DNA of 64,000 nucleotides. Source: Phorcus lineatus. Taxonomy: Eukaryota; Mollusca; Gastropoda; Trochida; Trochidae. A model generated the notes under the pieces. The model made no database searches and was not told the DNA's origin. It saw nothing but the letters and a program-made list of their open reading frames with translations. Where the stretch lies: the NCBI GenBank assembly GCA_921293015.1, contig OV121097.1:33729929-33793928 (forward strand), in the 5' to 3' direction. Positions 6,951-62,508 of the stretch are shown piece by piece (the first letter of the stretch is position 1; each line of letters opens with the position of its first letter). Made by a program: the position numbers and the translations under genes.

Positions 6951-8124
6951 TTTCTTAAAAATGCATATTTCTAAACCAAACTTTCATCAAATGTACATTA
7001 CAATGTGTTCTATCGATTGAGCAATAAAAAATTCCTGTCAGATTCTTGGTATGGGCTCCAGATTCGAGCTTAAACAGGTCCACATAGCCGATTTTGACCA
7101 AAATCGCAGAAAAAGACTAAGTCAAATATATGCATATTGTTGTAGCGAGCGTGATAACTTTCTTAAAAATGCATATTTCTGAACCAAACTTTCATCAAAT
7201 GTACATCACAATGTGTTCTATCGATTGAGTAATAAAAAATTCCTGTCAGATTATTGGTATGGGCTCCAGATTCGAGCTTAAACAGGTCCAGATAGCCGAT
7301 TTTGACCAAAATCGCGGAAAAAGACTAAGTCGAATATATGCATATTGTTGTAGCGAGCGTGATAACTTTCTTAAAAATGCATATTTCTAAACCAAACTTT
7401 CATCAAATGTACATCACAATGTGTTCTATCGATTGAGCAATAAAAAATTCCTGTCAGATTCTTGGTATGGGCTCCAGATTCGAGCTTAAACAGGTCCACA
7501 TAGCCGATTTTGACCAAAATCGCAGAAAAAGACTAAGTCAAATATATGCATATTGTTGTAGCGAGCGTGATAACTTTCTTAAAAATGCATATTTCTAAAC
7601 CAAACTTTCATCAAATGTACATCACAATGTGTTCTATCGATTGAGCAATAAAAAATTCCTGTCAGATTCTTGGTATGGGCTCCAGATTCGAGCTTAAACA
7701 GGTCCAGATAGCCGATTTTGACCAAAATCGCGGAAAAAGACTAAGTCGAAAATATGCATATTGTTGTAGCGAGCGTGATAACTTTCTTAAAAATGCATAT
7801 TTCTAAACCAAACTTTCATCAAATGTACATTACAATGTGTTCTATCGATTGAGCAATAAAAAATTCCTGTCAGATTCTTGGTATGGGCTCCAGATTCGAG
7901 CTTAAACAGGTCCACATAGCCGATTTTGACCAAAATCGCGGAAAAAGACTGTCGAATATATGCATATTGTTGTAGCGAGCGTGATAACTTTCTTAAAAAT
8001 GCATATTTCTAAACCAAACTTTCATCAAATGTACATCACAATGTGTTCTATCGATTGAGCAATAAAAAATTCCTGTCAGATTCTTGGTATGGGCTCCAGA
8101 TTCGAGCTTAAACAGGTCCAGATA

Positions 8125-8146
8125 GCCGATTTTGGTCAAAATCGGC
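8125..8146. repeat. Short recombinant (22 bp) of the 31-bp segment
   Basis: The segment reads GCCGATTTT, loop GGTC, then AAAATCGGC, a perfect 9-bp-arm palindrome. The left half has normal orientation and the loop plus right half has inverted orientation. It is 9 bases shorter than normal. It is the size counterpart of the 40-bp form at 12,891. Confidence 0.88.
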
Positions 8147-10611
8147 TAAGTCGAATATATGCATATTGTTGTAGCGAGCGTGATAACTTTCTTAAAAATG
8201 CATATTTCTAAACCAAACTTTCATCAAATGTACATCACAATGTGTTCTATCGATTGAGCAATAAACAATTCCTGTCAGATTCTTGGTATGGGCTCCAGAT
8301 TCGAGCTTAAACAGGTCCAGATAGCCTATTTTGACCAAAATCGCGGAAAAAGACTAAGTCGAATATATGCATATTGTTGTAGCGAGCGTGATAACTTTCT
8401 TAAAAATGCATATTTCTAAACCAAACTTTCATCAAATGTACATCACAATGTGTTCTATCGATTGAGCAATAAAAAATTCCTGTCAGATTATTGGTATGGG
8501 CTCCAGATTCGAGCTTAAACAGGTCCAGATAGCCGATTTTGACCAAAATCGCGGAAAAAGACTAAGTCGAAAATATGCATATTGTTGTAGCGAGCGTGAT
8601 AACTTTCTTAAAAATGCATATTTCTAAACCAAACTTTCATCAAATGTACATCACAATGTGTTCTATCGATTGAGCAATAAAAAATTCCTGTCAGATTCTT
8701 GGTATGGGCTCCAGATTCGAGCTTAAACAGGTCCACATAGCCGATTTTGACCAAAATCGCAGAAAAAGACCAAGTCGAATATATGCATATTGTTGTAGCG
8801 AGCGTGATAACTTTCTTAAAAATGCATATTTCTAAACCAAACTTTCATCAAATGTACATCACAATGTGTTCTATCGATTGAGCACTACGAATTTCCTGTC
8901 AGATTCTTAATTTGGGCTCCAGATTTGAGCTTAAACAGGTCCAGATAGCCGATTTTGACCAAAATCGCAGAAAAAGACTAAGTCGAATATATGCATATTG
9001 TTGTAGAGAGCGTGATAACTTTCTTAAAAATGCATATTTCTAAACCAAACTTTCATCAAATGTACATCACAATGTGTTCTATCGATTGAGCAATAAAAAA
9101 TTCCTGTCAGATTCTTGGTATGGGCTCCAGATTCGAGCTTAAACAGGTCCAGATAGCCGATTTTGACCACAATCGCGGAAAAAGACTAAGTCGAATATAT
9201 GCATATTGTTGTAGCAAGCGTGATAACTTTCTTAAAAATGCATATTTCTGAACCAAACTTTCATCAAATGTACATCACAATGTGTTCTATCGATTGAGCA
9301 ATAAACAATTCCTGTCAGATTCTTGGTATGGGCTCCAGATTCGAGCTTAAACAGGTCCACATAGCCGATTTTGACCAAAATCGCAGAAAAAGACCAAGTC
9401 GAATATATGCATATTGTTGTAGCGAGCGTGATAACTTTCTTAAAAATGCATATTTCTAAACCAAACTTTCATCAAATGTACATCACAATGTGTTCTATCG
9501 ATTGAGCAATAAACAATTCCTGTCAGATTATTGGTATGGGCTCCAGATTCGAGCTTAAACAGGTCCAGATAGCCGATTTTGACCAAAATCGCGGAAAAAG
9601 ACTTAGTCGAAAATATGCATATTGTTGTAGCGAGCGTGATAACTTTCTTAAAAATGCATATTTCTAAACCAAACTTTCATCAAATGTACATCACAATGTG
9701 TTCTATCGATTGAGCAATAAAAAATTCCTGTCAGATTATTGGTATGGGCTCCAGATTCGAGCTTAAACAGGTCCAGATAGCCGATTTTGACCAAAATCGC
9801 GGAAAAAGACTAAGTCGAATATATGCATATTGTTGTAGCGAGCGTGATAACTTTCTTAAAAATGCATATTTCTAAACCAAACTTTCATCAAATGTACATC
9901 ACAATGTGTTCTATCGATTGAGCAATAAAAAATTCCTGTCAGATTCTTGGTATGGGCTCCAGATTCGAGCTTAAACAGGTCCAGATAGCCGATTTTGACC
10001 AAAATCGCGGAAAAAGACTAAGTCGAAAATATGCATATTGTTGTAGCGAGCGTGATAACTTTCTTAAAAATGCATATTTCTAAACCAAACTTTCATCAAA
10101 TGTACATCACAATGTGTTCTATCGATTGAGCAATAAAAAATTCCTGTCAGATTCTTGGTATGGGCTCCAGATTCGAGCTTAAACAGGTCCAGATAGCCGA
10201 TTTTGACCAAAATCGCGGAAAAAGACTAAGTCGAAAATATGCATATTGTTGTAGCGAGCGTGATAACTTTCTTAAAAATGCATATTTCTAAACCAAACTT
10301 TCATCAAATGTACATTACAATGTTTTCTATCGATTGAGCAATAAAAAATTCCTGTCAGATTCTTGGTATGGGCTCCAGATTCGAGCTTAAACAGGTCCAC
10401 ATAGCCGATTTTGACCAAAATCGCGGAAAAAGACTAAGTCGAATATATGCATATTGTTGTAGCGAGCGTGATAACTTTCTTAAAAATGCATATTTCTAAA
10501 CCAAACTTTCATCAAATGTACATCACAATGTGTTCTATCGATTGAGCAATAAAAAATTCCTGTCAGATTCTTGGTATGGGCTCCAGATTCGAGCTTAAAC
10601 AGGTCCAGATA

Positions 10612-10642
10612 GACTTTTTCCGCGATTTTGGTCAAAATCGGC
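10612..10642. repeat. Inverted 31-bp segment
   Basis: Between CAGATA and TAAGTCG the monomer carries the reverse complement of the usual 31 bases, with one difference (GAC for GTC at the start). Flanks and length are otherwise normal, so this is an inversion and not an insertion. Confidence 0.9.
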
Positions 10643-11651
10643 TAAGTCGAATATATGCATATTGTTGTAGCGAGCGTGATAACTTTCTTAAAAATGCATA
10701 TTTCTAAACCAAACTTTCATCAAATGTACATCACAATGTGTTCTATCGATTGAGCAATAAACAATTCCTGTCAGATTCTTGGTATGGGCTCCAGATTCGA
10801 GCTTAAACAGGTCCAGATAGCCGATTTTGACCAAAATCGCGGAAAAAGACTAAGTCGAATATATGCATATTGTTGTAGCGAGCGTGATAACTTTCTTAAA
10901 AATGCATATTTCTAAACCAAACTTTCATCAAATGTACATCACAATGTGTTCTATCGATTGAGCAATAAAAAATTCCTGTCAGATTCTTGGTATGGGCTCC
11001 AGATTCGAGCTTAAACAGGTCCAGATAGCCGATTTTGACCAAAATCGCGGAAAAAGACTAAGTCGAAAATATGCATATTGTTGTAGCGAGCGTGATAACT
11101 TTCTTAAAAATGCATATTTCTAAACCAAACTTTCATCAAATGTACATCACAATGTGTTCTATCGATTGAGCAATAAAAAATTCCTGTCAGATTCTTGGTA
11201 TGGGCTCCAGATTCGAGCTTAAACAGGTCCAGATAGCCGATTTTGACCAAAATCGCGGAAAAAGACTAAGTCGAAAATATGCATATTGTTGTAGCGAGCG
11301 TGATAACTTTCTTAAAAATGCATATTTCTAAACCAAACTTTCATCAAATGTACATTACAATGTGTTCTATCGATTGAGCAATAAAAAATTCCTGTCAGAT
11401 TCTTGGTATGGGCTCCAGATTCGAGCTTAAACAGGTCCACATAGCCGATTTTGACCAAAATCGCGGAAAAAGACTAAGTCGAATATATGCATATTGTTGT
11501 AGCGAGCGTGATAACTTTCTTAAAAATGCATATTTCTAAACCAAACTTTCATCAAATGTACATCACAATGTGTTCTATCGATTGAGCAATAAAAAATTCC
11601 TGTCAGATTCTTGGTATGGGCTCCCGATTCGAGCTTAAACAGGTCCAGATA

Positions 11652-11673
11652 GCCGATTTTGGTCAAAATCGCC
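11652..11673. repeat. Short recombinant (22 bp) of the 31-bp segment
   Basis: This is the same type as the copy at 8,125, with left arm GCCGATTTT, loop GGTC and right part AAAATCGCC. A single base change (GGC to GCC) spoils the outer pairing. Confidence 0.82.
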
Positions 11674-12888
11674 TAAGTCGAATATATGCATATTGTTGTA
11701 GCGAGCGTGATAACTTTCTTAAAAATGCATATTTCTAAACCAAACTTTCATCAAATGTACATCACAATGTGTTCTATCGATTGAGCAATAAACAATTCCT
11801 GTCAGATTCTTGGTATGGGCTCCAGATTCGAGCTTAAACAGGTCCAGATAGCCGATTTTGACCAAAATCGCGGAAAAAGACTAAGTCGAATATATGCATA
11901 TTGTTGTAGCGAGCGTGATAACTTTCTTAAAAATGCATATTTCTAAACCAAACTTTCATCAAATGTACATCACAATGTGTTCTATCGATTGAGCAATAAA
12001 AAATTCCTGTCAGATTATTGGTATGGGCTCCAGATTCGAGCTTAAACAGGTCCAGATAGCCGATTTTGACCAAAATCGCGGAAAAAGACTAAGTCGAATA
12101 TATGCATATTGTTGTAGCGAGCGTGATAACTTTCTTAAAAATGCATATTTCTAAACCAAACTTTCATCAAATGTACATCACAATGTGTTCTATCGATTGA
12201 GCAATAAAAAATTCCTGTCAGATTCTTGGTATGGGCTCCAGATTCGAGCTTAAACAGGTCCAGATAGCCGATTTTGACCAAAATCGCGGAAAAAGACTAA
12301 GTCGAAAATATGCATATTGTTGTAGCGAGCGTGATAACTTTCTTAAAAATGCATATTTCTAAACCAAACTTTCATCAAATGTACATCACAATGTGTTCTA
12401 TCGATTGAGCAATAAAAAATTCCTGTCAGATTCTTGGTATGGGCTCCAGATTCGAGCTTAAACAGGTCCAGATAGCCGATTTTGACCAAAATCGCGGAAA
12501 AAGACTAAGTCGAAAATATGCATATTGTTGTAGCGAGCGTGATAACTTTCTTAAAAATGCATATTTCTAAACCAAACTTTCATCAAATGTACATTACAAT
12601 GTGTTCTATCGATTGAGCAATAAAAAATTCCTGTCAGATTCTTGGTATGGGCTCCAGATTCGAGCTTAAACAGGTCCACATAGCCGATTTTGACCAAAAT
12701 CGCGGAAAAAGACTAAGTCGAATATATGCATATTGTTGTAGCGAGCGTGATAACTTTCTTAAAAATGCATATTTCTAAACCAAACTTTCATCAAATGTAC
12801 ATCACAATGTGTTCTATCGATTGAGCAATAAAAAATTCCTGTCAGATTCTTGGTATGGGCTCCAGATTCGAGCTTAAACAGGTCCAGA

Positions 12889-12932
12889 TAGTCTTTTTCC
12901 GCGATTTTGGTCAAAATCGCGGAAAAAGACTA
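12889..12932. repeat. Long recombinant: perfect hairpin with 20-bp arms
   Basis: The left half is inverted orientation and the right half normal, giving 40 bases (12,891-12,930) in place of 31. With the flanking TA on each side the arms are 20 bp, perfectly complementary, around the loop GGTC. This is the strongest hairpin I found in the satellite and could extrude as a cruciform. Confidence 0.92.
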
Positions 12933-14147
12933 AGTCGAATATATGCATATTGTTGTAGCGAGCGTGATAACTTTCTTAAAAATGCATATTTCTAAACCAA
13001 ACTTTCATCAAATGTACATCACAATGTGTTCTATCGATTGAGCAATAAACAATTCCTGTCAGATTCTTGGTATGGGCTCCAGATTCGAGCTTAAACAGGT
13101 CCAGATAGCCGATTTTGACCAAAATCGCGGAAAAAGACTAAGTCGAATATATGCATATTGTTGTAGCGAGCGTGATAACTTTCTTAAAAATGCATATTTC
13201 TAAACCAAACTTTCATCAAATGTACATCACAATGTGTTCTATCGATTGAGCAATAAAAAATTCCTGTCAGATTCTTGGTATGGGCTCCAGATTCGAGCTT
13301 AAACAGGTCCAGATAGCCGATTTTGACCAAAATCGCGGAAAAAGACTAAGTCGAAAATATGCATATTGTTGTAGCGAGCGTGATAACTTTCTTAAAAATG
13401 CATATTTCTAAACCAAACTTTCATCAAATGTACATCACAATGTGTTCTATCGATTGAGCAATAAAAAATTCCTGTCAGATTCTTGGTATGGGCTCCAGAT
13501 TCGAGCTTAAACAGGTCCAGATAGCCGATTTTGACCAAAATCGCGGAAAAAGACTAAGTCGAAAATATGCATATTGTTGTAGCGAGCGTGATAACTTTCT
13601 TAAAAATGCATATTTCTAAACCAAACTTTCATCAAATGTACATCACAATGTGTTCTATCGATTGAGCAATAAAAAATTCCTGTCAGATTCTTGGTATGGG
13701 CTCCAGATTCGAGCTTAAACAGGTCCAGATAGCCGATTTTGACCAAAATCGCGGAAAAAGACTAAGTCGAAAATATGCATATTGTTGTAGCGAGCGTGAT
13801 AACTTTCTTAAAAATGCATATTTCTAAACCAAACTTTCATCAAATGTACATTACAATGTGTTCTATCGATTGAGCAATAAAAAATTCCTGTCAGATTCTT
13901 GGTATGGGCTCCAGATTCGAGCTTAAACAGGTCCACATAGCCGATTTTGACCAAAATCGCGGAAAAAGACTAAGTCGAATATATGCATATTGTTGTAGCG
14001 AGCGTGATAACTTTCTTAAAAATGCATATTTCTAAACCAAACTTTCATCAAATGTACATCACAATGTGTTCTATCGATTGAGCAATAAAAAATTCCTGTC
14101 AGATTCTTGGTATGGGCTCCAGATTCGAGCTTAAACAGGTCCAGATA

Positions 14148-14178
14148 GACTTTTTCAGCGATTTTGGTCAAAATCGGC
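14148..14178. repeat. Inverted 31-bp segment
   Basis: A full inversion like that at 10,612, sharing its GAC start and adding one change (TTTTTCAGCG for TTTTTCCGCG). The shared GAC suggests common descent with the 10,612 copy. Confidence 0.88.
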
Positions 14179-15187
14179 TAAGTCGAATATATGCATATTG
14201 TTGTAGCGAGCGTGATAACTTTCTTAAAAATGCATATTTCTAAACCAAACTTTCATCAAATGTACATCACAATGTGTTCTATCGATTGAGCAATAAACAA
14301 TTCCTGTCAGATTCTTGGTATGGGCTCCAGATTCGAGCTTAAACAGGTCCAGATAGCCGATTTTGACCAAAATCGCGGAAAAAGACTAAGTCGAATATAT
14401 GCATATTGTTGTAGCGAGCGTGATAACTTTCTTAAAAATGCATATTTCTAAACCAAACTTTCATCAAATGTACATCACAATGTGTTCTATCGATTGAGCA
14501 ATAAAAAATTCCTGTCAGATTCTTGGTATGGGCTCCAGATTCGAGCTTAAACAGGTCCAGATAGCCGATTTTGACCAAAATCGCGGAAAAAGACTAAGTC
14601 GAAAATATGCATATTGTTGTAGCGAGCGTGATAACTTTCTTAAAAATGCATATTTCTAAACCAAACTTTCATCAAATGTACATCACAATGTGTTCTATCG
14701 ATTGAGCAATAAAAAATTCCTGTCAGATTCTTGGTATGGGCTCCAGATTCGAGCTTAAACAGGTCCAGATAGCCGATTTTGACCAAAATCGCGGAAAAAG
14801 ACTAAGTCGAAAATATGCATATTGTTGTAGCGAGCGTGATAACTTTCTTAAAAATGCATATTTCTAAACCAAACTTTCATCAAATGTACATTACAATGTG
14901 TTCTATCGATTGAGCAATAAAAAATTCCTGTCAGATTCTTGGTATGGGCTCCAGATTCGAGCTTAAACAGGTCCACATAGCCGATTTTGACCAAAATCGC
15001 GGAAAAAGACTAAGTCGAATATATGCATATTGTTGTAGCGAGCGTGATAACTTTCTTAAAAATGCATATTTCTAAACCAAACTTTCATCAAATGTACATC
15101 ACAATGTGTTCTATCGATTGAGCAATAAAAAATTCCTGTCAGATTCTTGGTATGGGCTCCAGATTCGAGCTTAAACAGGTCCAGATA

Positions 15188-15218
15188 GTCTTTTTCCGCG
15201 ATTTTGGTCAAAATCGGC
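15188..15218. repeat. Inverted 31-bp segment (exact)
   Basis: Exact reverse complement of the normal segment between CAGATA and TAAGTCG. The breakpoints fall at TA dinucleotides on both sides. Confidence 0.93.
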
Positions 15219-16019
15219 TAAGTCGAATATATGCATATTGTTGTAGCGAGCGTGATAACTTTCTTAAAAATGCATATTTCTAAACCAAACTTTCATCAAA
15301 TGTACATCACAATGTGTTCTATCGATTGAGCAATAAACAATTCCTGTCAGATTCTTGGTATGGGCTCCAGATTCGAGCTTAAACAGGTCCAGATAGCCTA
15401 TTTTGACCAAAATCGCGGAAAAAGACTAAGTCGAATATATGCATATTGTTGTAGCGAGCGTGATAACTTTCTTAAAAATGCATATTTCTAAACCAAACTT
15501 TCATCAAATGTACATCACAATGTGTTCTATCGATTGAGCAATAAAGAATTCCTGTCAGATTATTGGTATGGGCTCCAGATTCGAGCTTAAACAGGTCCAG
15601 ATAGCCGATTTTGACCAAAATCGCGGAAAAAGACTAAGTCGAAAATATGCATATTGTTGTAGCGAGCGTGATAACTTTCTTAAAAATGCATATTTCTAAA
15701 CCAAACTTTCATCAAATGTACATCACAATGTGTTCTATCGATTGAGCAATAAAAAATTCCTGTCAGATTCTTGGTATGGGCTCCAGATTCGAGCTTAAAC
15801 AGGTCCACATAGCCGATTTTGACCAAAATCGCGGAAAAAGACTAAGTCGAATATATGCATATTGTTGTAGCGAGCGTGATAACTTTCTTAAAAATGCATA
15901 TTTCTAAACCAAACTTTCATCAAATGTACATCACAATGTGTTCTATCGATTGAGCAATAAAAAATTCCTGTCAGATTCTTGGTATGGGCTCCAGATTCGA
16001 GCTTAAACAGGTCCAGATA

Positions 16020-16050
16020 GTCTTTTTCCGCGATTTTGGTCAAAATCGGC
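16020..16050. repeat. Inverted 31-bp segment (exact)
   Basis: A second exact inversion, 832 bp (four monomers) after the one at 15,188 and identical to it, so probably amplified together with neighbouring monomers. Confidence 0.93.
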
Positions 16051-16060
16051 TAAGTCGAAT

Positions 16061-19000
16061 ATATGCATATTGTTGTAGCGAGCGTGATAACTTTCTTAAA
16101 AATGCATATTTCTAAACCAAACTTTCATCAAATGTACATCACAATGTGTTCTATCGATTGAGCAATAAACAATTCCTGTCAGATTCTTGGTATGGGCTCC
16201 AGATTCGAGCTTAAACAGGTCCAGATAGCCTATTTTGACCAAAATCGCGGAAAAAGACTAAGTCGAATATATGCATATTGTTGTAGCGAGCGTGATAACT
16301 TTCTTAAAAATGCATATTTCTAAACCAAACTTTCATCAAATGTACATCACAATGTGTTCTATCGATTGAGCAATAAAAAATTCCTGTCAGATTATTGGTA
16401 TGGGCTCCAGATTCGAGCTTAAACAGGTCCACATAGCCGATTTTGACCAAAATCGCGGAAAAAGACTAAGTCGAATATATGCATATTGTTGTAGCGAGCG
16501 TGATAACTTTCTTAAAAATGCATATTTCTAAACCAAACTTTCATCAAATGTACATCACAATGTGTTCTATTGATTGAGCACTACGAATTTCCTGTCAGAT
16601 TCTTGGTTTGGGCTCCAGATTCGAGCTTAAACAGGTCCACATAGCCGATTTTGACCAAAATCGCGGAAAAAGACTAAGTCAAATATATGCATATTGTTGT
16701 AGCGAGCGTGATAACTTTCTTAAAAATGCATATTTCTAAACCAAACTTTCATCAAATGTACATCACAATGTGTTCTATCGATTGAGCAATAAAAAATTCC
16801 TGTCAGATTCTTGGTATGGGCTCCAGATTCGAGCTTAAACAGGTCCAGATAGCCGATTTTGACCAAAATCGCGGAAAAAGACTAAGTCGAATATATGCAT
16901 ATTGTTGTAGCGAGCGTGATAACTTTCTTAAAAATGCATATTTCTAAACCAAACTTTCATCAAATGTACATCACAATGTGTTCTATCGATTGAGCAATAA
17001 AAAATTCCTGTCAGATTCTTGGTATGGGCTCCAGATTCGAGCTTAAACAGGTCCAGATAGCCGATTTTGACCAAAATCGCGGAAAAAGACTAAGTCGAAT
17101 ATATGCATATTGTTGTAGCGAGCGTGATAACTTTCTTAAAAATGCATATTTCTAAACCAAACTTTCATCAAATGTACATCACAATGTGTTCTATCGATTG
17201 AGCAATAAAAAATTCCTGTCAGATTCTTGGTATGGGCTCCAGATTCGAGCTTAAACAGGTCCACATAGCCGATTTTGACCAAAATCGCAGAAAAAGACAA
17301 AGTCAAATATATGCATATTGTTGTAGCGAGCGTGATAACTTTCTTAAAAATGCATATTTCTAAACCAAACTTTCATCAAATGTACTTTACAATGTGTTCT
17401 ATCGATTGAGCAATAAAAAATTCCTGTCAGATTCTTGGTATGGGCTCCAGATTCGAGCTTAAACAGGTCCACATAGCCGATTTTGACGAAAATCGCAGAA
17501 AAAGACTAAGTCAAATATATGCATATTGTTGTAGCGAGCGTGATAACTTTCTTAAAAATGCATATTTCTGAACCAAACTTTCATCAAATGTACATCACAA
17601 TGTGTTCTATCGATTGAGCAATAAACAGTTCCTGTCAGATTTTTGGTATGGGCTCCAGATTCGAGCTTAAACAGGTCCAGATAGCCGATTTTGACTAAAA
17701 TCGCAGAAAAAGACCAAGTCGAATATATGCATATTGTTGTAGCGAGCGTGATAACTTTCTTAAAAATGCATATTTCTAAACCAAACTTTCATCAAATGTA
17801 CACCACAATGTGTTCTATCGATTGAGCACTACGAATTTCCTGTCAGATTCTTGGTTTGGGCTCCAGATTCGAGCTTAAACAGGTCCAGATAGCCGATTTT
17901 GACCAAAATCGCGGAAAAAGACCAAGTCAAATATATGCATATTGTTGTAGCGAGCGTGATAACTTTCTTAAAAATGCATATTTCTGAACCAAACTTTCAT
18001 CAAATGTACATCACAATGTGTTCTATCGATTGAGCAATAAAAAATTCCTGTCAGATTCTTAATATGGGCTCCAGATTCGAGCTTAAACAGGTCCAGATAG
18101 CCTATTTTGACCAAAATCGCGGAAAAAGACTAAGTCGAATATATGCATATTGTTGTAGCGAGCGTGATAACTTTCTTAAAAATGCATATTTCTAAACCAA
18201 ACTTTCATCAAATGTACATCACAATGTGTTCTATCGATTGAGCAATAAAAAATTCCTGTCAGATTCTTGGTATGGGCTCCAGATTCGAGCTTAAACATGT
18301 CCACATAGCCGATTTTGACCAAAATCGCAGAAAAAGACTAAGTCGAATATATGCATATTGTTGTAGCGAGCGTGATAACTTTCTTAAAAATGCATATTTC
18401 TAAACCAAACTTTCATCAAATGTACTTTACAATGTGTTCTATCGATTGAGCACTACGAATTTCCTGTCAGATTATTGGTATGGGCTCCAGATTCGAGCTT
18501 AAACAGGTCCACATAGCCGATTTTGACCAAAATCGCGGAAAAAGACTAAGTCGAATATATGCATATTGTTGTAGCGAGCGTGATAACTTTCTTAAAAATG
18601 CATATTTCTAAACCAAACTTTCATCAAATGTACATCACAATGTGTTCTATCGATTGAGCAATAAAAAATTCCTGTCAGATTCTTGGTATGGGCTCCAGAT
18701 TCGAGCTTAAACAGGTCCACATAGCCGATTTTGACCAAAATCGCAGAAAAAGACTAAGTCAAATATATGCATATTGTTGTAGCGAGCGTGATAACTTTCT
18801 TAAAAATGCATATTTCTAAACCAAACTTTCATCAAATGTACTTTACAATGTGTTCTATCGATTGAGCAATAAAAAATTCCTGTCAGATTCTTGGTATGGG
18901 CTCCAGATTCGAGCTTAAACAGGTCCACATAGCCGATTTTGACGAAAATCGCAGAAAAAGACTAAGTCAAATATATGCATATTGTTGTAGCGAGCGTGAT

Positions 19001-50070: not shown

Positions 50071-53000
50071 AATTCCTGTCAGATTCTTAATATGGGCTCC
50101 AGATTCGAGCTTAAACAGGTCCAGATAGCCGATTTTGACCAAAATCGCGGAAAAAGACTAAGTCGAATATATGCATATTGTTGTAGCGAGCGTGATAACT
50201 TTCTTAAAAATGCATATTTCTAAACCAAACTTTCATCAAATGTACATCACAATGTGTTCTATCGATTGAGCAATACGAATTTCCTGTCAGATTCTTGGTT
50301 TGGGCTCCATATTCGAGCTTAAACAGGTCCAGATAGCCGATTTTGACCAAAATCGCGGAAAAAGACTAAGTCGAATATATGCATATTGTTGTAGCGAGCG
50401 TGATAACTTTCTTGAAAATGCATATTTCTAAACCAAACTTTCATCAAATGTACATCACAATGTGTTCTATCGATTGAGCAATACGAATTTCCTGTCAGAT
50501 TTTTGGTTTGGGCTCCAGATTCGAGCTTAATCAGGTCCAGATAGCCGATTTTGACCAAAATCGCGGAAAAAGACTAAGTCGAATATATGCATATTGTTGT
50601 AGCGAGCGTGATAACTTTCTTAAAAATGCATATTTCTAAACCAAACTTTCATCAAATGTACATCACAATGTGTTCTATCGATTGAGCAATACGAATTTCC
50701 TGTCAGATTCTTGGTTTGGGCTCCAGATTTGAGCTTAAACAGGTCCAGATAGCCGATTTTGACCAAAATCGCGGAAAAAGACTAAGTCGAATATATGCAT
50801 ATTGTTGTAGCGAGCGTGATAACTTTCTTAAAAATGCATATTTCTAAACCAAACTTTCATCAAATGTACATCACAATGTGTTCTATCGATTGAGCAATAC
50901 GAATTTCCTGTCAGATTCTTGGTTTGGGCTCCAGATTCGAGCTTAAACAGGTCCAGATAGCCGATTTTGACCAAAATCGCGGAAAAAGACTAAGTCGAAT
51001 ATATGCATATTGTTGTAGCGAGCGTGATAACTTTCTTAAAAATGCATATTTCTAAACCAAACTTTCATCAAATGTACATCACAATGTGTTCTATCGATTG
51101 AGCAATATAAAATTCCTGTCAGATTCTTGGTATGGGCTCCAGATTCGAGCTTAAACAGGTCCAGATAGCCGATTTTGACCAAAATCGCGGAAAAAGACTA
51201 AGTCGAAAATATGCATATTGTTGTAGCGAGCGTGATAACTTTCTTAAAAATGCATATTTCTAAACCAAACTTTCATCATATGTACATCACAATGTGTTCT
51301 ATCGATTGAGCAATAAAAAATTCCTGTCAGATTCTTGGTATGGGCTCCAGATTCGAGCTTAAACAGGTCCACATAGCCGATTTTGACCAAAATCGCAGAA
51401 AAAGACTAAGTCAAATATATGCAAATTGTTGTAGCGAGCGTGATAACTTTCTTAAAAATGCATATTTCTAAACCAAACTTTCATCAAATGTACATCACAA
51501 TGTGTTCTATCGATTGAGCAATAAAAAATTCCTGTCAGATTCTTAATATGGGCTCCAGATTCGAGCTTAAACAGGTCCAGATAGCCGATTTTGACCAAAA
51601 TCGCGGAAAAAGACTAAGTCGAATATATGCATATTGTTGTAGCGAGCGTGATAACTTTCTTAAAAATGCATATTTCTAAACCAAACTTTCATCAAATGTA
51701 CATCACAATGTGTTCTATCGATTGAGCAATACGAATTTCCTGTCAGATTCTTGGTTTGGGCTCCATATTCGAGCTTAAACAGGTCCAGATAGCCGATTTT
51801 GACCAAAATCGCGGAAAAAGACTAAGTCGAATATATGCATATTGTTGTAGCGAGCGTGATAACTTTCTTAAAAATGCATATTTCTAAACCAAACTTTCAT
51901 CAAATGTACATCACAATGTGTTCTATCGATTGAGCAATACGAATTTCCTGTCAGATTCTTGGTTTGGGCTCCAGATTCGAGCTTAATCAGGTCCAGATAG
52001 CCGATTTTGACCAAAATCGCGGAAAAAGACTAAGTCGAATATATGCATATTGTTGTAGCGAGCGTGATAACTTTCTTAAAAATGCATATTTCTAAACCAA
52101 ACTTTCATCAAATGTACATCACAATGTGTTCTATCGATTGAGCAATACGAATTTCCTGTCAGATTCTTGGTTTGGGCTCCAGATTTGAGCTTAAACAGGT
52201 CCAGATAGCCGATTTTGACCAAAATCGCGGAAAAAGACTAAGTCGAATATATGCATATTGTTGTAGCGAGCGTGATAACTTTCTTAAAAATGCATATTTC
52301 TAAACCAAACTTTCATCAAATGTACATCACAATGTGTTCTATCGATTGAGCAATACGAATTTCCTGTCAGATTCTTGGTTTGGGCTCCAGATTCGAGCTT
52401 AAACAGGTCCAGATAGCCGATTTTGACCAAAATCGCGGAAAAAGACTAAGTCGAATATATGCATATTGTTGTAGCGAGCGTGATAACTTTCTTAAAAATG
52501 CATATTTCTAAACCAAACTTTCATCAAATGTACATCACAATGTGTTCTATCGATTGAGCAATACGAATTTCCTGTCAGATTCTTGGTTTGGGCTCCAGAT
52601 TTGAGCTTAAACAGGTCCAGATAGCCGATTTTGACCAAAATTGCGGAAAAAGACTAAGTCGAATATATGCATATTGTTGTAGCGAGCGTGATAACTTTCT
52701 TAAAAATGCATATTTCTAAACCAAACTTTCATCAAATGTACATCACAATGTGTTCTATCGATTGAGCAATACGAATTTCCTGTCAGATTCTTGGTTTGGG
52801 CTCCAGATTCGAGCTTAAACAGGTCCAGATAGCCGATTTTGACCAAAATCGCGGAAAAAGACTAAGTCGAATATATGCATATTGTTGTAGCGAGCGTGAT
52901 AACTTTCTTAAAAATGCATATTTCTAAACCAAACTTTCATCAAATGTACATCACAATGTGTTCTATCGATTGAGCAATACGAATTTCCTGTCAGATTCTT

Positions 53001-54219
53001 GGTTTGGGCTCCAAAATCGAGCTTAAACAGGTCCAGATAGCCGATTTTGACCAAAATCGCGGAAAAAGACTAAGTCGAATATATGCATATTGTTGTAGCG
53101 AGCGTGATAACTTTCTTAAAAATGCATATTTCTAAACCAAACTTTCATCAAATGTACATCACAATGTGTTCTATCGATTGAGCAATACGAATTTCCTGTC
53201 AGATTCTTGGTTTGGGCTCCAGATTTGAGCTTAAACAGGTCCAGATAGCCGATTTTGACCAAAATCGCGGAAAAAGACTAAGTCGAATATATGCATATTG
53301 TTGTAGCGAGCGTGATAACTTTCTTAAAAATGCATATTTCTAAACCAAACTTTCATCAAATGTACATCACAATGTGTTCTATCGATTGAGCAATACGAAT
53401 TTCCTGTCAGATTCTTGGTTTGGGCTCCAAAATCGAGCTTAAACAGGTCCAGATAGCCGATTTTGACCAAAATCGCAAAAAAAGACTAAGTCGAATATAT
53501 GCATATTGTTGTAGCGAGCGTGATAACTTTCTTAAAAATGCATATTTCTAAACCAAACTTTCATCAAATGTACATCACAATGTGTTCTATCGATTGAGCA
53601 ATACGAATTTCCTGTCAGATTCTTGGTTTGGGCTCCAGATTTGAGCTTAAACAGGTCCAGATAGCCGATTTTGACCAAAATCGCGGAAAAAGACTAAGTC
53701 GAATATATGCATATTGTTGTAGCGAGCGTGATAACTTTCTTAAAAATGCATATTTCTAAACCAAACTTTCATCAAATGTACATCACAATGTGTTCTATCG
53801 ATTGAGCAATACGAATTTCCTGTCAGATTCTTGGTTTGGGCTCCAGATTCGAGCTTAAACAGGTCCAGATAGCCGATTTTGACCAAAATCGCGGAAAAAG
53901 ACTAAGTCGAATATATGCATATTGTTGTAGCGAGCGTGATAACTTTCTTAAAAATGCATATTTCTAAACCAAACTTTCATCAAATGTACATCACAATGTG
54001 TTCTATCGATTGAGCAATACGAATTTCCTGTCAGATTCTTGGTTTGGGCTCCAAAATCGAGCTTAAACAGGTCCAGATAGCCGATTTTGACCAAAATCGC
54101 GGAAAAAGACTAAGTCGAATATATGCATATTGTTGTAGCGAGCGTGATAACTTTCTTAAAAATGCATATTTCTAAACCAAACTTTCATCAAATGTACATC
54201 ACAATGTGTTCTATCGATT

Positions 54220-57200
54220 GAGCAATACGAATTTCCTGTCAGATTCTTGGTTTGGGCTCCAGATTCGAGCTTAAACAGGTCCAGATAGCCGATTTTGACC
54301 AAAATCGCGGAAAAAGACTAAGTCGAATATATGCATATTGTTGTAGCGAGCGTGATAACTTTCTTAAAAATGCATATTTCTAAACCAAACTTTCATCAAA
54401 TGTACATCACAATGTGTTCTATCGATTGCGCAATACGAATTTCCTGTCAGATTCTTGGTTTGGGCTCCAGATTCGAGCTTAAACAGGTCCAGATAGCCGA
54501 TTTTGACCAAAATCGCGGAAAAAGACTAAGTCGAATATATGCATATTGTTGTAGCGAGCGTGATAACTTTCTTAAAAATGCATATTTCTAAACCAAACTT
54601 TCATCAAATGTACATCACAATGTGTTCTATCGATTGAGCAATACGAATTTCCTGTCAGATTCTTGGTTTGGGCTCCAAAATCGAGCTTAAACAGGTCCAG
54701 ATAGCCGATTTTGACCAAAATCGCGGAAAAAGACTAAGTCGAATATATGCATATTGTTGTAGCGAGCGTGATAACTTTCTTAAAAATGCATATTTCTAAA
54801 CCAAACTTTCATCAAATGTACATCACAATGTGTTCTATCGATTGAGCAATACGAATTTCCTGTCAGATTCTTGGTTTGGGCTCCAAAATCGAGCTTAAAC
54901 AGGTCCAGATAGCCGATTTTGACCAAAATCGCGGAAAAAGACTAAGTCGAATATATGCATATTGTTGTAGCGAGCGTGATAACTTTCTTAAAAATGCATA
55001 TTTCTAAACCAAACTTTCATCAAATGTACATCACAATGTGTTCTATCGATTGAGCAATACGAATTTCCTGTAAGATTCTTGGTTTGGGCTCCAGATTCGA
55101 GCTTAAACAGGTCCAGATAGCCGATTTTGACCAAAATCGCGGAAAAAGACTAAGTCGAATATATGCATATTGTTGTAGCGAGCGTGATAACTTTCTTAAA
55201 AATGCATATTTCTAAACCAAACTTTCATCAAATGTACATCACAATGTGTTCTATCGATTGAGCAATACGAATTTCCTGTCAGATTCTTGGTTTGGGCTCC
55301 AGATTCGAGCTTAAACAGGTCCAGATAGCCGATTTTGACCAAAATCGCGGAAAAAGACTAAGTCGAATATATGCATATTGTTGTAGCGAGCGTGATAACT
55401 TTCTTAAAAATGCATATTTCTAAACCAAACTTTCATCAAATGTACATCACAATGTGTTCTATCGATTGCGCAATACGAATTTCCTGTCAGATTCTTGGTT
55501 TGGGCTCCAGATTCGAGCTTAAACAGGTCCAGATAGCCGATTTTGACCAAAATCGCGGAAAAAGACTAAGTCGAATATATGCATATTGTTGTAGCGAGCG
55601 TGATAACTTTCTTAAAAATGCATATTTCTAAACCAAACTTTCATCAAATGTACATCACAATGTGTTCTATCGATTGAGCAATACGAATTTCCTGTCAGAT
55701 TCTTGGTTTGGGCTCCAAAATCGAGCTTAAACAGGTCCAGATAGCCGATTTTGACCAAAATCGCGGAAAAAGACTAAGTCGAATATATGCATATTGTTGT
55801 AGCGAGCGTGATAACTTTCTTAAAAATGCATATTTCTAAACCAAACTTTCATCAAATGTACATCACAATGTGTTCTATCGATTGAGCAATACGAATTTCC
55901 TGTAAGATTCTTGGTTTGGGCTCCAGATTCGAGCTTAAACAGGTCCAGATAGCCGATTTTGACCAAAATCGCGGAAAAAGACTAAGTCGAATATATGCAT
56001 ATTGTTGTAGCGAGCGTGATAACTTTCTTAAAAATGCATATTTCTAAACCAAACTTTCATCAAATGTACATCACAATGTGTTCTATCGATTGAGCAATAC
56101 GAATTTCCTGTCAGATTCTTGGTTTGGGCTCCAGATTCGAGCTTAAACAGGTCCAGATAGCCGATTTTGACCAAAATCGCGGAAAAAGACTAAGTCGAAT
56201 ATATGCATATTGTTGTAGCGAGCGTGATAACTTTCTTAAAAATGCATATTTCTAAACCAAACTTTCATCAAATGTACATCACAATGTGTTCTATCGATTG
56301 CGCAATACGAATTTCCTGTCAGATTCTTGGTTTGGGCTCCAGATTCGAGCTTAAACAGGTCCAGATAGCCGATTTTGACCAAAATCGCGGAAAAAGACTA
56401 AGTCGAATATATGCATATTGTTGTAGCGAGCGTGATAACTTTCTTAAAAATGCATATTTCTAAACCAAACTTTCATCAAATGTACATCACAATGTGTTCT
56501 ATCGATTGAGCAATACGAATTTCCTGTCAGATTCTTGGTTTGGGCTCCAAAATCGAGCTTAAACAGGTCCAGATAGCCGATTTTGACCAAAATCGCGGAA
56601 AAAGACTAAGTCGAATATATGCATATTGTTGTAGCGAGCGTGATAACTTTCTTAAAAATGCATATTTCTAAACCAAACTTTCATCAAATGTACATCACAA
56701 TGTGTTCTATCGATTGAGCAATACGAATTTCCTGTCAGATTCTTGGTTTGGGCTCCAAAATCGAGCTTAAACAGGTCCAGATAGCCGATTTTGACCAAAA
56801 TCGCGGAAAAAGACTAAGTCGAATATATGCATATTGTTGTAGCGAGCGTGATAACTTTCTTAAAAATGCATATTTCTAAACCAAACTTTCATCAAATGTA
56901 CATCACAATGTGTTCTATCGATTGAGCAATACGAATTTCCTGTAAGATTCTTGGTTTGGGCTCCAGATTCGAGCTTAAACAGGTCCAGATAGCCGATTTT
57001 GACCAAAATCGCGGAAAAAGACTAAGTCGAGTATATGCATATTGTTGTAGCGAGCGTGATAACTTTCTTAAAAATGCATATTTCTAAACCAAACTTTCAT
57101 CAAATGTACATCACAATGTGTTCTATCGATTGAGCAATACGAATTTCCTGTCAGATTCTTGGTTTGGGCTCCAGATTCGAGCTTAAACAGGTCCAGATAG

Positions 57201-58900
57201 CCGATTTTGACCAAAATCGCGGAAAAAGACTAAGTCGAATATATGCATATTGTTGTAGCGAGCGTGATAACTTTCTTAAAAATGCATATTTCTAAACCAA
57301 ACTTTCATCAAATGTACATCACAATGTGTTCTATCGATTGAGCAATACGAATTTCCTGTCAGATTCTTGGTTTGGGCTCCAGATTCGAGCTTAAACAGGT
57401 CCAGATAGCCGATTTTGACCAAAATCGCGGAAAAAGACTAAGTCGAATATATGCATATTGTTGTAGCGAGCGTGATAACTTTCTTAAAAATGCATATTTC
57501 TAAACCAAACTTTCATCAAATGTACTTCACAATGTGTTCTATCGATTGAGCAATACGAATTTCCTGTCAGATTCTTGGTTTGGGCTCCAGATTCGAGCTT
57601 AAACAGGTCCAGATAGCCGATTTTGACCAAAATCGCGGAAAAAGACTAAGTCGAATATATGCATATTGTTGTAGCGAGCGTGATAACTTTCTTAAAAATG
57701 CATATTTCTAAACCAAACTTTCATCAAATGTACATCACAATGTGTTCTATCGATTGAGCAATACGAATTTCCTGTCAGATTCTTGGTTTGGGCTCCAGAT
57801 TCGAGCTTAAACAGGTCCAGATAGCCGATTTTGACCAAAATCGCGGAAAAAGACTAAGTCGAATATATGCATATTGTTGTAGCGAGCGTGATAACTATCT
57901 TAAAAATGCATATTTCTAAACCAAACTTTCATCAAATGTACATCACAATGTGTTCTCTCGATTGCGCAATACGAATTTCCTGTCAGATTCTTGGTTTGGG
58001 CTCCAGATTCGAGCTTAAACAGGTCCAGATAGCCGATTTTGACCAAAATCGCGGAAAAAGACTAAGTCGAATATATGCATATTGTTGTAGCGAGCGTGAT
58101 AACTTTCTTAAAAATGCATATTTCTAAACCAAACTTTCATCAAATGTACATCACAATGTGTTCTATCGATTGAGCAATACGAATTTCCTGTCAGATTCTT
58201 GGTTTGGGCTCCAAAATCGAGCTTAAACAGGTCCAGATAGCCGATTTTGACCAAAATCGCGGAAAAAGACTAAGTCGAATATATGCATATTGTTGTAGCG
58301 AGCGTGATAACTTTCTTAAAAATGCATATTTCTAAACCAAACTTTCATCAAATGTACATCACAATGTGTTCTATCGATTGAGCAATACGAATTTCCTGTC
58401 AGATTCTTGGTTTGGGCTCCAAAATCGAGCTTAAACAGGTCCAGATAGCCGATTTTGACCAAAATCGCGGAAAAAGACTAAGTCGAATATATGCATATTG
58501 TTGTAGCGAGCGTGATAACTTTCTTAAAAATGCATATTTCTAAACCAAACTTTCATCAAATGTACATCACAATGTGTTCTATCGATTGAGCAATACGAAT
58601 TTCCTGTAAGATTCTTGGTTTGGGCTCCAGATTCGAGCTTAAACAGGTCCAGATAGCCGATTTTGACCAAAATCGCGGAAAAAGACTAAGTCGAGTATAT
58701 GCATATTGTTGTAGCGAGCGTGATAACTTTCTTAAAAATGCATATTTCTAAACCAAACTTTCATCAAATGTACATCACAATGTGTTCTATCGATTGAGCA
58801 ATACGAATTTCCTGTCAGATTCTTGGTTTGGGCTCCAGATTCGAGCTTAAACAGGTCCAGATAGCCGATTTTGACCAAAATCGCGGAAAAAGACTAAGTC
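54220..58900. repeat. Four-, five- and eight-monomer higher-order pattern
   Basis: GATTGCGCAATACG occurs with its variant base at about 54,429, 55,469, 56,301 and 57,965, intervals of 1,040, 832 and 1,664 bp (5, 4 and 8 monomers). TGTAAGATTC occurs at 55,069, 55,901, 56,941 and 58,605, intervals of 832, 1,040 and 1,664 bp. The TGTAAG marker returns at about 63,037; after subtracting the 1,521 bases added by the transposon this is 14 monomers minus one base. The TGC variant removes a stop codon and creates incidental 86-codon open frames. Confidence 0.85.
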
Positions 58901-60721
58901 GAATATATGCATATTGTTGTAGCGAGCGTGATAACTTTCTTAAAAATGCATATTTCTAAACCAAACTTTCATCAAATGTACATCACAATGTGTTCTATCG
59001 ATTGAGCAATACGAATTTCCTGTCAGATTCTTGGTTTGGGCTCCAGATTCGAGCTTAAACAGGTCCAGATAGCCGATTTTGACCAAAATCGCGGAAAAAG
59101 ACTAAGTCGAATATATGCATATTGTTGTAGCGAGCGTGATAACTTTCTTAAAAATGCATATTTCTAAACCAAACTTTCATCAAATGTACTTCACAATGTT
59201 TTCTATCGATTGAGCAATACGAATTTCCTGTCAGATTCTTGGTTTGGGCTCCAGATTCGAGCTTAAACAGGTCCAGATAGCCGATTTTGACCAAAATCGC
59301 GGAAAAAGACTAAGTCGAATATATGCATATTGTTGTAGCGAGCGTGATAACTTTCTTAAAAATGCATATTTCTAAACCAAACTTTCATCAAATGTACATC
59401 ACAATGTGTTCTATCGATTGAGCAATACGAATTTCCTGTCAGATTCTTGGTTTGGGCTCCAGATTCGAGCTTAAACAGGTCCAGATAGCCGATTTTGACC
59501 AAAATCGCGGAAAAAGACTAAGTCGAATATATGCATATTGTTGTAGCGAGCGTGATAACTTTCTTAAAAATGCATATTTCTAAACCAAACTTTCATCAAA
59601 TGTACATCACAATGTGTTCTATCGATTGAGCAATACGAATTTCCTGTCAGATTCTTGGTTTGGGCTCCGAAATCGAGCTTAAACAGGTCCAGATAGCCGA
59701 TTTTGACCAAAATCGCGGAAAAAGACTAAGTCGAATATATGCATATTGTTGTAGCGAGCGTGATAACTTTCTTAAAAATGCATATTTCTAAACCAAACTT
59801 TCATCAAATGTACATCACAATGTGTTCTATCGATTGAGCAATACGAATTTCCTGTCAGATTCTTGGTTTGGGCTCCAGATTTGAGCTTAAACAGGTCCAG
59901 ATAGCCGATTTTGACCAAAATCGCAGAAAAAGACTAAGTCGAATATATGCATATTGTTGTAGCGAGCGTGATAACTTTCTTAAAAATGCATATTTCTAAA
60001 CCAAACTTTCATCAAATGTACATCACAATGTGTTCTATCGATTGAGCAATACGAATTTCCTGTCAGATTCTTGGTTTGGGCTCCAGATTTGAGCTTAAAC
60101 AGGTCCAGATAGCCGATTTTGACCAAAATCGCGGAAAAAGACTAAGTCGAATATATGCATATTGTTGTAGCGAGCGTGATAACTTTCTTAAAAATGCATA
60201 TTTCTAAACCAAACTTTCATCAAATGTACATCACAATGTGTTCTATCGATTGAGCAATACGAATTTCCTGTCAGATTCTTGGTTTGGGCTCCAGATTCGA
60301 GCTTAAACAGGTCCAGATAGCCGATTTTGACCAAAATCGCGGAAAAAGACTAAGTCGAATATATGCATATTGTTGTAGCGAGCGTGATAACTTTCTTAAA
60401 AATGCATATTTCTAAACCAAACATTCATCAAATGTACATCACAATGTGTTCTATCGATTGAGCAATACGAATTTCCTGTCAGATTCTTGGTTTGGGCTCC
60501 AAAATCGAGCTTAAACAGGTCCAGATAGCCGATTTTGACCAAAATCGCAGAAAAAGACTAAGTCGAATATATGCATATTGTTGTAGAGAGCGTGATAACT
60601 TTCTTAAAAATGCATATTTCTAAACCAAACTTTCATCAAATGTACATCACAATGTGTTCTATCGATTGAGCAATACGAATTTCCTGTCAGATTCTTGGTT
60701 TGGGCTCCAGATTCGAGCTTA

Positions 60722-60929
60722 AACAGGTCCAGATAGCCGATTTTGACCAAAATCGCGGAAAAAGACTAAGTCGAATATATGCATATTGTTGTAGCGAGCG
60801 TGATAACTTTCTTAAAAATGCATATTTCTAAACCAAACTTTCATCAAATGTACATCACAATGTGTTCTATCGATTGAGCAATACGAATTTCCTGTCAGAT
60901 TCTTGGTTTGGGCTCCAGATTCGAGCTTA
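60722..60929 (+). repeat. Representative 208-bp satellite monomer
   Basis: This is the last intact copy before the transposon and is typical of the right-hand homogeneous zone. Landmarks by monomer position: 1-10 AACAGGTCCA; 16-46 the 31-bp segment that is inverted in some copies elsewhere; 17-23 and 28-34 the hairpin arms CGATTTT and AAAATCG around loop GACC; 56-65 the palindrome ATATGCATAT, which is also where the transposon inserted; 97-102 a second ATGCAT; 149-154 ATCGAT. It has no long reading frame, and most copies carry stops in every frame. Confidence 0.95.
60738..60755. repeat. Hairpin core of the monomer (example copy)
   Basis: Seven-base arms CGATTTT and AAAATCG flank a four-base loop GACC. 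This core is present in nearly every monomer. It is the point where normal and inverted versions of the 31-bp segment appear to have recombined in the 8.1-16.05 kb zone. A role in protein binding or cruciform formation is possible but not shown. Confidence 0.85.
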
Positions 60930-60985
60930 AACAGGTCCAGATAGCCGATTTTGACCAAAATCGCGGAAAAAGACTAAGTCGAATA

Positions 60986-60987
60986 TA
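60986..60987. other. TA target-site duplication, left
   Basis: An empty monomer reads GTCGAATATATGCAT. The left junction reads GTCGAATATA followed by TACTATCC and the right junction reads GGATAGTA followed by TATGCAT, so one TA is duplicated. Confidence 0.9.
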
Positions 60988-61013
60988 TACTATCCCAAAA
61001 AAGTAACGCATAG
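60988..61013. repeat. Left terminal inverted repeat, 26 bp
   Basis: Begins TACTATCCC and ends AACGCATAG. Reverse-complement comparison with the right end gives 24 matches of 26, with mismatches at positions 9 (C/A) and 17 (T/A). Similarity stops beyond base 26. Confidence 0.95.
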
Positions 61014-61313
61014 GTGATTTTTCATAATTGAAATCGAAATATTTTTATTTGTATTATTTTTATTGTCCAAAAAAGTAATGATATTGATGATACTGACAAG
61101 TTGTTTTCGTTTTCTTTTCCAAAAATGGATCTTACATGGAAATGTTGACTTTGGTGAACATTTTAAGGGTAAATCAAAAACGCTTCGCCACAACGCAACA
61201 CGTGCAATTACGAACGTGAAAGTTTTGTGGAAAATGCATGCAGTGTGTGGCTATAAAAAGGGATGCCGCATTCGGATTTGCCACTTGTTTGGAGATTGAT
61301 TGTAAGACACTCC
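61014..61313 (+). other. Transposon 5' non-coding region
   Basis: A 300-bp AT-rich stretch between the left inverted repeat and the likely transposase start. It holds the TATA-like box at 61,252. Short open frames on both strands here have no recognisable content. I see no second set of internal inverted repeats. Confidence 0.75.
61252..61260 (+). promoter_or_regulatory. TATA-like box of the transposase
   Basis: TATAAAAAG lies 54 bp before the ATG at 61,314 and only 2 bp before the ATG at 61,263. With a transcription start expected about 25-30 bp downstream, a transcript would begin near 61,285. That would include the 61,314 start but not the 61,263 one. This is inferred from sequence alone. 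Confidence 0.45.
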
Positions 61314-62312
61314 ATGGTGGCACGTCTTGACGCTATAACAAGAAACATCGCCATCGGAAGACTTCAAGCTGGAGAGTCCCAATGTTCGGTGACAGGACGT
61401 CTCCACGTTAGCCAGAGCACCATTTCAAGACTTTTCGACAGGTTCTTTCAGACCAACACGACAAATGACAGTCCCCGTTCAGGCAGGCCATGTGTCACCA
61501 CACCAGCTCAAGATCGCTACATCCGGGGCATCCATTTGTGTTATCGCACAACTACTGCCGAGAGTACTGCAGGCAACATACCAGAACTGAGAAGAATTTT
61601 AAGCCAGACTGTAGGGAACAGCTTGAGGGAGGATGGATTGAGAGCCAGGAGACCCTACGTTGTCAACGTTCCACGTCGTCAACACCGTGCCAATCGACTT
61701 CGTTGGTGTAACACAGTTGGTGTTTGGAATCTTCGCAACTAGCGCCTAGTTTGGTTCGGTGATGAATCCAGGTTCCTATTGCGGAGGCGAGATGGCAGAA
61801 ACCGTGTTTAATGGCGTCGGAACGAACGTTTTGCCGCTTACTGTGTTCTTGAGGTGGACAGATTTGGTGGAAGCAGCGTTATGATGTGGGCGGCGATATC
61901 GTACACTGGTCGCACCAATTTAATCCACGTTCATGGAAATTTGACGGTCGTACGCTACAGAGACAACATCCTGCAGCCACACACCCTGCCCGTCCAATGT
62001 GAACTGTTCCAGCAGGACAACGCCAGGCCACATGCTGGACGAGTCACTGGAGATTTCCTCGCCAGAAACAACATTAATAAGTTCCAATGATCTGGCTATC
62101 AAGATTTGAATGCAATTGAACATCTTTGGGATGAACTTGATCGACGTCTTCTTCAGCGTCAACAACAGCCTCAAACTCTACAAGAACTGGCTCTATTTGT
62201 GCAGCAGGAGTGGCAGACGATTCCAAAACCAACCATATAGCGTCTAATCCAGTCGATGCCAAGGCGGGTGAGAACTGTCATCAACGCACAAGGTGGCCAC
62301 AACAGATGCTAA
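61314..62312 (+). pseudogene. Tc1-like transposase pseudogene (four in-frame stops)
   Basis: The enzyme would cut the transposon at its inverted repeats and paste it at a TA site. One frame of 333 codons runs from ATG to TAA, close to the usual Tc1 length of about 340, with no frameshift. An N-terminal paired-type helix-turn-helix (about residues 8-45, GRLQAGESQ to STISRLFDRF) is followed by a GRPR-type linker that reads GRPC (57-60), a second helix-turn-helix (about 80-112), and the catalytic domain. Catalytic residues are D150 (FGDESRF), D235 (FQQDNARPH) and E269 (LNAIEHLWDEL). Stops lie at 61,740 (TAG, family Trp), 61,809 (TAA), 62,088 (TGA, Trp of the WP.YSPDLN motif) and 62,238 (TAG, probably Gln). 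One codon is lost before DLN, so 33 rather than 34 residues separate D235 and E269. About three codons seem missing before ELFQQDN. An in-frame ATG at 61,263 is a possible earlier start, but the TATA-like box argues for 61,314. Confidence 0.93.
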
Positions 62313-62480
62313 CTTTCTACGGACGTCTGTGAAATATTGTGAAAGCCATATCTAATGTTTTTACGTAATTTCGTTAATTGATATTTCCTTAAATCTGATG
62401 TAAAACATCACACTTGTAACTTCATTTCCTTTCAATTTATATGCGTTTGAAAATACAACAATTTCTCCTAACAAATCTGG
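62313..62480 (+). other. Transposon 3' non-coding region
   Basis: 168 bp of AT-rich sequence between the transposase stop and the right inverted repeat. No AATAAA polyadenylation signal is visible. I see nothing else in it. Confidence 0.75.
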
Positions 62481-62506
62481 CTATGCGTTTCTTTTTTTGG
62501 ATAGTA
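62481..62506. repeat. Right terminal inverted repeat, 26 bp
   Basis: Begins CTATGCGTTTC and ends TTGGATAGTA. It pairs with the left repeat at 24 of 26 positions. Confidence 0.95.
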
Positions 62507-62508
62507 TA
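62507..62508. other. TA target-site duplication, right
   Basis: Right copy of the duplicated TA, followed by TGCATATTG, the normal continuation of the interrupted monomer. Confidence 0.9.

Follow-up and report, generated by a model that had tools for sequence, protein, structure and literature searches.

Inverted, short and long forms of a hairpin segment in one slot of a satellite repeat of Phorcus lineatus

How do neighbouring copies of a single tandem repeat come to carry a hairpin that is normal in one half and inverted in the other? This question is raised by a 208-base-pair (bp) satellite of the gastropod Phorcus lineatus (Trochidae), which we analysed in a 64-kb window (positions 33,729,929 to 33,793,928 of the forward strand of contig OV121097.1, assembly GCA_921293015.1); positions below are those of the window, and all counts and searches of array copies were made inside it. 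A first-pass annotation had picked out three copies, at 8,125, 11,652 and 12,891, that mix normal and inverted halves, and had taken the short and long copies among them for the reciprocal products of one crossover. The three copies are real and as described, the one at 11650–11675 being one base off, and normal-like and inverted-like halves are indeed joined over a palindromic core; their origin as two products of one crossover did not hold. From the sequence we propose that one in-place inversion was amplified together with the repeat and that its arms were later re-copied separately by quasi-palindrome template switching, an account in which our confidence is evenly balanced.

The hairpin segment and its variant forms

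The satellite was delimited with Tandem Repeats Finder (TRF) and by monomer decomposition and alignment.

1–60988, resuming at 62505–64000 after an insertion, forward strand: 208-bp satellite array

Array anchors were found 301 times on the plus strand and never on the minus strand. We cut out and aligned 299 monomers and compiled a parallel listing of 300 hairpin segments. The normal segment is a 29-bp quasi-palindrome bounded by TAG and CTA, with point variants occurring, and is composed, in order, of C, CGATTTTG, AC, CAAAATCG and CGGAAAAAGA. Its 8-bp arms, CGATTTTG and CAAAATCG, are exact complements, and the outer parts are unequal (1 base on the left, 10 on the right), such that an imperfect inverted repeat pre-exists at the site. 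The shared palindromic core had previously been put at 7 bp; the measured arm is 8 bp.

The segment is in its normal orientation in 292 of the 299 monomers, while the other seven are odd, with four full inversions, two short forms and one long form:

8123–8148, forward strand: short form, exact, centre GT; normal left half, inverted right half
10610–10644, forward strand: full inversion with its first base changed from T to A (segment comparison and markers)
11650–11675, forward strand: short form, one base different, centre GT (segment comparison)
12889–12932, forward strand: long form, exact, centre GT; inverted left half, normal right half
14146–14180, forward strand: full inversion with its first base changed from T to A and a further change (TTCAG)
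15186–15220, forward strand: full inversion, exact reverse complement of normal
16018–16052, forward strand: full inversion, exact reverse complement of normal

Reverse-complementing the normal segment reproduces the full inversion exactly, in all 29 bases and in the 3-bp borders, and chance is therefore no explanation of its letters. Between TAG and CTA, the normal segment measures 29 bp, the short form 20 bp (29−9) and the long form 38 bp (29+9); the lengths of 31, 22 and 40 bp reported earlier use other boundaries, which leaves the 9-bp difference unchanged. In its letters, the short form corresponds to the inversion with the left arm remade from the right, and the long form to the inversion with the right arm remade from the left, each being present in one exact copy. 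The second short form reads CGCCTA at 11670–11675 where CGGCTA is expected, the changed base being 11672, and the long form at 12889–12932 is a 44-nucleotide inverted repeat in which every base is paired.

The forms are discrete in length and uniform at their centres. In the segment listing, 294 entries have 47 letters, two have 38 and one has 56, and the remaining three (45, 46 and 48 letters) contain a normal hairpin with unrelated small changes. Intermediate lengths, which the first-pass annotation had named as evidence for stepwise deletion, are absent between the short, normal and long forms among the 300 segments of the window. The centre is GGTC in all seven odd segments, AC in 291 segments and AT in two. 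Folding as single-stranded DNA gave −4.6 kcal/mol for the normal and −5.0 kcal/mol for the inverted segment, −9.9 kcal/mol for the exact short form and −21.4 kcal/mol for the long form; the latter two are fully paired hairpins whose arms are exact copies, as expected of arm copying.

Elsewhere in the monomer, at columns 208–210, CCAGATTCG is replaced by CCAAAATCG in 21 of the 299 monomers across the whole array, a variant with the same letters as the hairpin arm CAAAATCG.

One slot of a higher-order repeat

Higher-order satellite repeats consist of a multi-monomer unit that is amplified as a block, with a variant in one slot. Markers along the array confirmed such a unit here, with variants in a constant order and a variable unit length.

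7904–16420, forward strand: array stretch with all seven odd segments and the higher-order repeat (marker tables)

The order is odd monomer (176C), plain or 192A, 65A, 65A+145T and 11C, and consecutive odd monomers are separated by steps of 12, 5, 6, 6, 5 and 4 monomers, so that the unit is four to six monomers long, apart from one wider interval. As in other higher-order repeats, a multi-monomer block carries a slot variant; unlike the usual case, this variant is a small inversion with what appear to be later arm changes, rather than point changes, and the unit comprises four to six monomers.

All seven odd segments occupy the same slot. Outside the segment, the seven monomers are identical and differ from the consensus solely by 176C. 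The monomer preceding the odd one carries 11C in seven of seven cases, and 65A+145T lies two monomers before it in six of seven, the copy at 16005 having 65A alone there. The odd forms are all of the seven monomers, among 299, that have one flanking haplotype; this is one way in C(299,7), about 2.5e-14, a figure that refers to a haplotype picked after the odd forms had been seen and to related copies, not to seven independent hits. The shared haplotype shows common descent of the seven. An assembly or sequencing artefact at the hairpin is very improbable in our view: hairpins within long arrays are hard to sequence, but seven copies lie in one slot, and those at 10610, 11650 and 14146 carry further base changes, private or common to two.

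The first-pass annotation had also proposed that flanking variants be compared to find exchange partners. This comparison does relate the short and long forms to the inversions, but it revealed no normal partner in the window. The looser left-flank test and the right-flank test below covered 285 of the 292 normal monomers, those at the ends being left out. On the left, nine monomers are preceded by a neighbour with 11C and no other marker (pure 11C), seven of them odd and two normal, and no normal monomer combines a pure-11C left neighbour with 65A+145T before it. A looser test for the short forms (any 11C left neighbour, with 65A+145T before) was passed by five of 285 normal monomers, in all of which the left neighbour carries further markers that the slot is without. 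For the short forms, a strict test that includes private changes shuts out the other odd monomers as well, and we relied there on the pure-11C test. On the right, the marker 176C alone was found in three normal monomers (23494, 34100 and 44498), none of which has the long form's next neighbours; the monomer at 44498 has the 176C-only haplotype, but different neighbours. The right flank of the long form was found in 0 of 285 normal monomers, and a flank like it follows the full inversions in the monomers that start at 10597 and 14133. Since the short and long forms have inversion-type flanks on both sides and no matching normal partner, they seem to descend from the slot with the inversion rather than to be hybrids of out-of-register monomers, as judged by these markers.

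Separately, the monomer at 7904–8109, the left neighbour of the first short form, has lost two bases of its own next to the segment, with GACTGTCG in place of GACTAAGTCG.

Routes between the forms

On the crossover reading, a normal and an inverted copy recombined once and left the short and long forms as reciprocal products, and the halves and lengths of these forms agree with it. The sum 22 + 40 = 2 × 31, however, which had been offered as the signature of a crossover, must come out in every quasi-palindrome in which each arm has served as template for the other. If the arms have lengths a and b and the centre has length s, a normal form of a+s+b has arm-copied counterparts of 2a+s and 2b+s, whose sum is twice a+s+b in all cases. 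The centres are more telling. A single crossover in the left arm would yield a short form with centre GT and a long form with centre AC, and one in the right arm would yield a short form with centre AC and a long form with centre GT. The two forms in the window both have GT where opposite centres are required, and they are therefore not two outcomes of one crossover but of at least two events, unless one centre was converted later. The reciprocal partners, short and long forms with centre AC, which would equally be the arm-corrected forms of the normal segment, are present in 0 copies each in the window, and both supposed products carry inversion flanks on both sides. We give this reading almost no credence.

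Among six forms compared, none can be turned into another by one deletion or one insertion. Copying with two template switches does link them: the normal segment is turned into the inversion with 3 matching bases at both entry and exit, the inversion into the long form by a 10-base reverse-complement copied tract with 8 and 3 matching bases, and the inversion into the short form with 3 and 8 matching bases. Of the two processes named at the outset, exchange and template switching, the latter is best supported, and a single reciprocal exchange is not.

On the account that we favour, the starting event would have been an in-place inversion of the whole 29 bp in one monomer; the simplest route is a polymerase that switched strand and returned at the 3-bp TAG/CTA matches. 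The inversion-bearing monomer would have been amplified as a single slot of the higher-order repeat. Later, in at least two descendants, one arm of the flipped copy would have served as template for the other: a left arm rebuilt on the right one would have produced the short form, and a right arm rebuilt on the left one the long form, with the centre unchanged as GT. The forms themselves, their common GT centre, their common slot and flanks and the lack of single-indel (insertion or deletion) paths are observed; the order of events, the use of the copy's own other arm as template and replication as the occasion are what we infer. The slot and flanks favour the inversion-first order, and template switching appears well founded for the long form, with its 10 copied bases, and less so for the short form.

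Several observations weigh against this account. The tract copied from inversion to short form would be a single base, and a 9-bp deletion plus one base change also turns the inversion into the short form, which means that the latter describes it equally well. Stepwise deletion, which had been named earlier as the alternative to exchange, thus fails as a single-indel path and works as a 9-bp deletion plus one change, which likewise turns the long form into the inversion. The second short form folds at −4.6 kcal/mol, no better than the normal segment, being one base off full pairing. The next-monomer markers 192A and 27T group the short form at 8110 with two inversions in preference to the second short form, and the changed base 11672, taken together with these markers, fits either one or two events for the two short forms. 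The first base is A in the two inversions with long-like flanks and T in the long form, so the inversions at 10597 and 14133 would not be its direct parent unless that base changed. Both the short and the long form can also be reached from the normal segment in one two-switch step (8+3 and 3+8 matching bases). A further candidate, derivation of the second short form from a normal copy by a 9-bp deletion, was rejected, as two further base changes would be needed, compared to one from the first short form.

A further objection is that correction is confined to the inverted lineage. None of the 292 normal monomers, in which the opposite strand offers an identical hairpin, is arm-corrected, compared to at least two correction events among the seven slot copies; with equal exposure, both corrections would fall within these seven copies with a probability of about 5e-4, a rough guide given that the copies are related. 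The bases in the corrected arms are identical to those that a normal donor would have supplied. A restriction to the inverted lineage is not accounted for by simple copying within the hairpin but would follow from an interaction between inverted and normal copies, and it favours a role for such encounters. Pairing of inverted with normal copies, by heteroduplex or strand switching, may thus trigger arm corrections that normal copies escape, a speculative suggestion that we consider unlikely.

An interaction of this kind is also the basis of the main rival to our account, in which an inverted and a normal copy undergo gene conversion over a short tract, or exchange in register, and the left 9-nucleotide loop, the 2-bp centre and the right 9-nucleotide loop of their heteroduplex are repaired separately. 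Heteroduplex repair would yield normal–inverted–inverted (the short form) and inverted–inverted–normal (the long form), with the exact letters predicted, the junction in the left arm for the short and in the right arm for the long form, and corrected forms solely where an inverted copy exists; no change of flanks is expected from a short tract, or from a partner in the corresponding slot of a sister or homologue. Against this, the inverted centre would have been retained twice where the opposite was equally likely (about 1 in 4, a weak estimate), no normal copy of the slot remains in the window by the markers used, and no normal monomer has flanks suited to a crossover (pure-11C test; right flank in 0 of 285). 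We regard it as a real possibility, if still an unlikely one.

Two other orders of events start from the same paths. In the first, the long form arose on the normal segment by one template switch, and 9-bp losses then gave the inversion (from one arm) and the short form (from the other). The long form can be reached from the normal segment by a single two-switch event, which is better matched (3+8 bases) than the step from normal to inversion (3+3). Loss of 9 bp together with one base change leads from the long form to the inversion, and another such loss and change from the inversion to the short form; long palindromes are known to be unstable. However, every loss requires an extra base change that exactly matches the mirrored base, the inversion ends on the right in the complement of the normal left end although the long form does not carry it, and inversions make up four of the seven odd copies, with both next-monomer types, compared to one for the long form. 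This order seems improbable to us. In the second, which we rate marginally lower again, the inversion, short and long forms each arose directly from the normal segment by separate two-switch events with differing entry and exit (the outer TAG/CTA or the 8-bp core). Each form then takes a single event (3+3, 8+3 and 3+8), with the GT centre explained at no added assumption; yet all the events would have fallen in one slot lineage among about 300 monomers, for which the probability of the two additional ones is roughly 5e-4, and by the markers used no normal slot copy remains.

The surrounding array and related systems

Beyond the slot, the array changes character at about 50.1 kb, where the monomer type switches from a mosaic on the left to a distinct and more uniform type on the right (50113–64000), with CG.T at columns 174–178 and T at column 198 in nearly all copies. 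Eight monomers, all of the CCG.T haplotype and starting at 25574, 26614, 27862, 36596, 37636, 38884, 45746 and 46786, have ATA in place of TAT at alignment columns 112–114. ATA is the reverse complement of TAT, and either a flip of three bases or an insertion coupled with a deletion could explain the change. No Rfam family reached its gathering score within 7900–16300, a 24-base satellite stretch had no exact match in bacterial and archaeal contigs, a set that possibly does not include the source genome, and a literature text search for three monomer strings found no occurrence.

The array is interrupted at 60985–62509 by a 1.5-kb insertion with TA at both ends and 29-nucleotide terminal inverted repeats that are 93% complementary. 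A stop-free stretch of 161 amino acids in the insertion matches the Tc3-type transposase helix-turn-helix PF01498 (E-value 3.7e-07) at 30.8 bits, slightly below the curated cut-off of 31.5, and a second stop-free stretch, of 92 amino acids, had no Pfam match. The insertion resembles what we take to be a Tc1/mariner-type element with a broken frame.

Arm copying of the type proposed here has been described in other settings. In yeast genes, template switching between short inverted repeats homogenises the arms and inverts spacers (Abraham and Hazkani-Covo 2021, PMC8604942), where the template-switch model is credited to Ripley 1982; quasi-palindrome-associated mutation under the Ripley model is described for E. 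coli (PMC7202029) and yeast (PMC3820800). Interstrand switches can also turn sequence in place, as in loop inversion in RNA genes (PMC8794818), and quasi-palindrome conversion and a four-point model are discussed for great ape genomes (Walker et al. 2021, PMC7954356).

The Phorcus forms resemble the quasi-palindrome cases given in these sources in that an imperfect inverted repeat is perfected by what is probably arm copying, the arms are complementary and short matches would suffice. As in the yeast REG2 case (PMC8604942), a flipped spacer accompanies the homogenised arms, and as in the four-point model (PMC7954356), two switches and one reverse-complement tract explain each form. They differ from the quasi-palindrome cases described there in their occurrence in a natural satellite array, with both directions of correction at one slot, and in their restriction to the inverted orientation, to the exclusion of the far commoner normal copies. 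The great ape study is a genome comparison, and the words 'satellite' and 'tandem repeat' are absent from its main text. Among the papers listed when open-access literature was searched for satellites and repeat arrays (titles and the starts of abstracts, with the terms used), none concerned arm correction within satellite monomers.

The mechanism is thus already known, and this array is a clear natural example of it, a tidy but modest record. Near-identical satellite copies with phase markers show parent and products side by side, and the order of events can be argued from the flanks. Should arm correction prove confined to the inverted lineage throughout the array, orientation mismatch between copies, and not the hairpin alone, would be suggested as its driver. 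Should pairing between inverted and normal copies indeed be the trigger, a small inversion would make its own satellite lineage prone to rewriting, and bursts of palindrome-making may be expected wherever a hairpin has been flipped.

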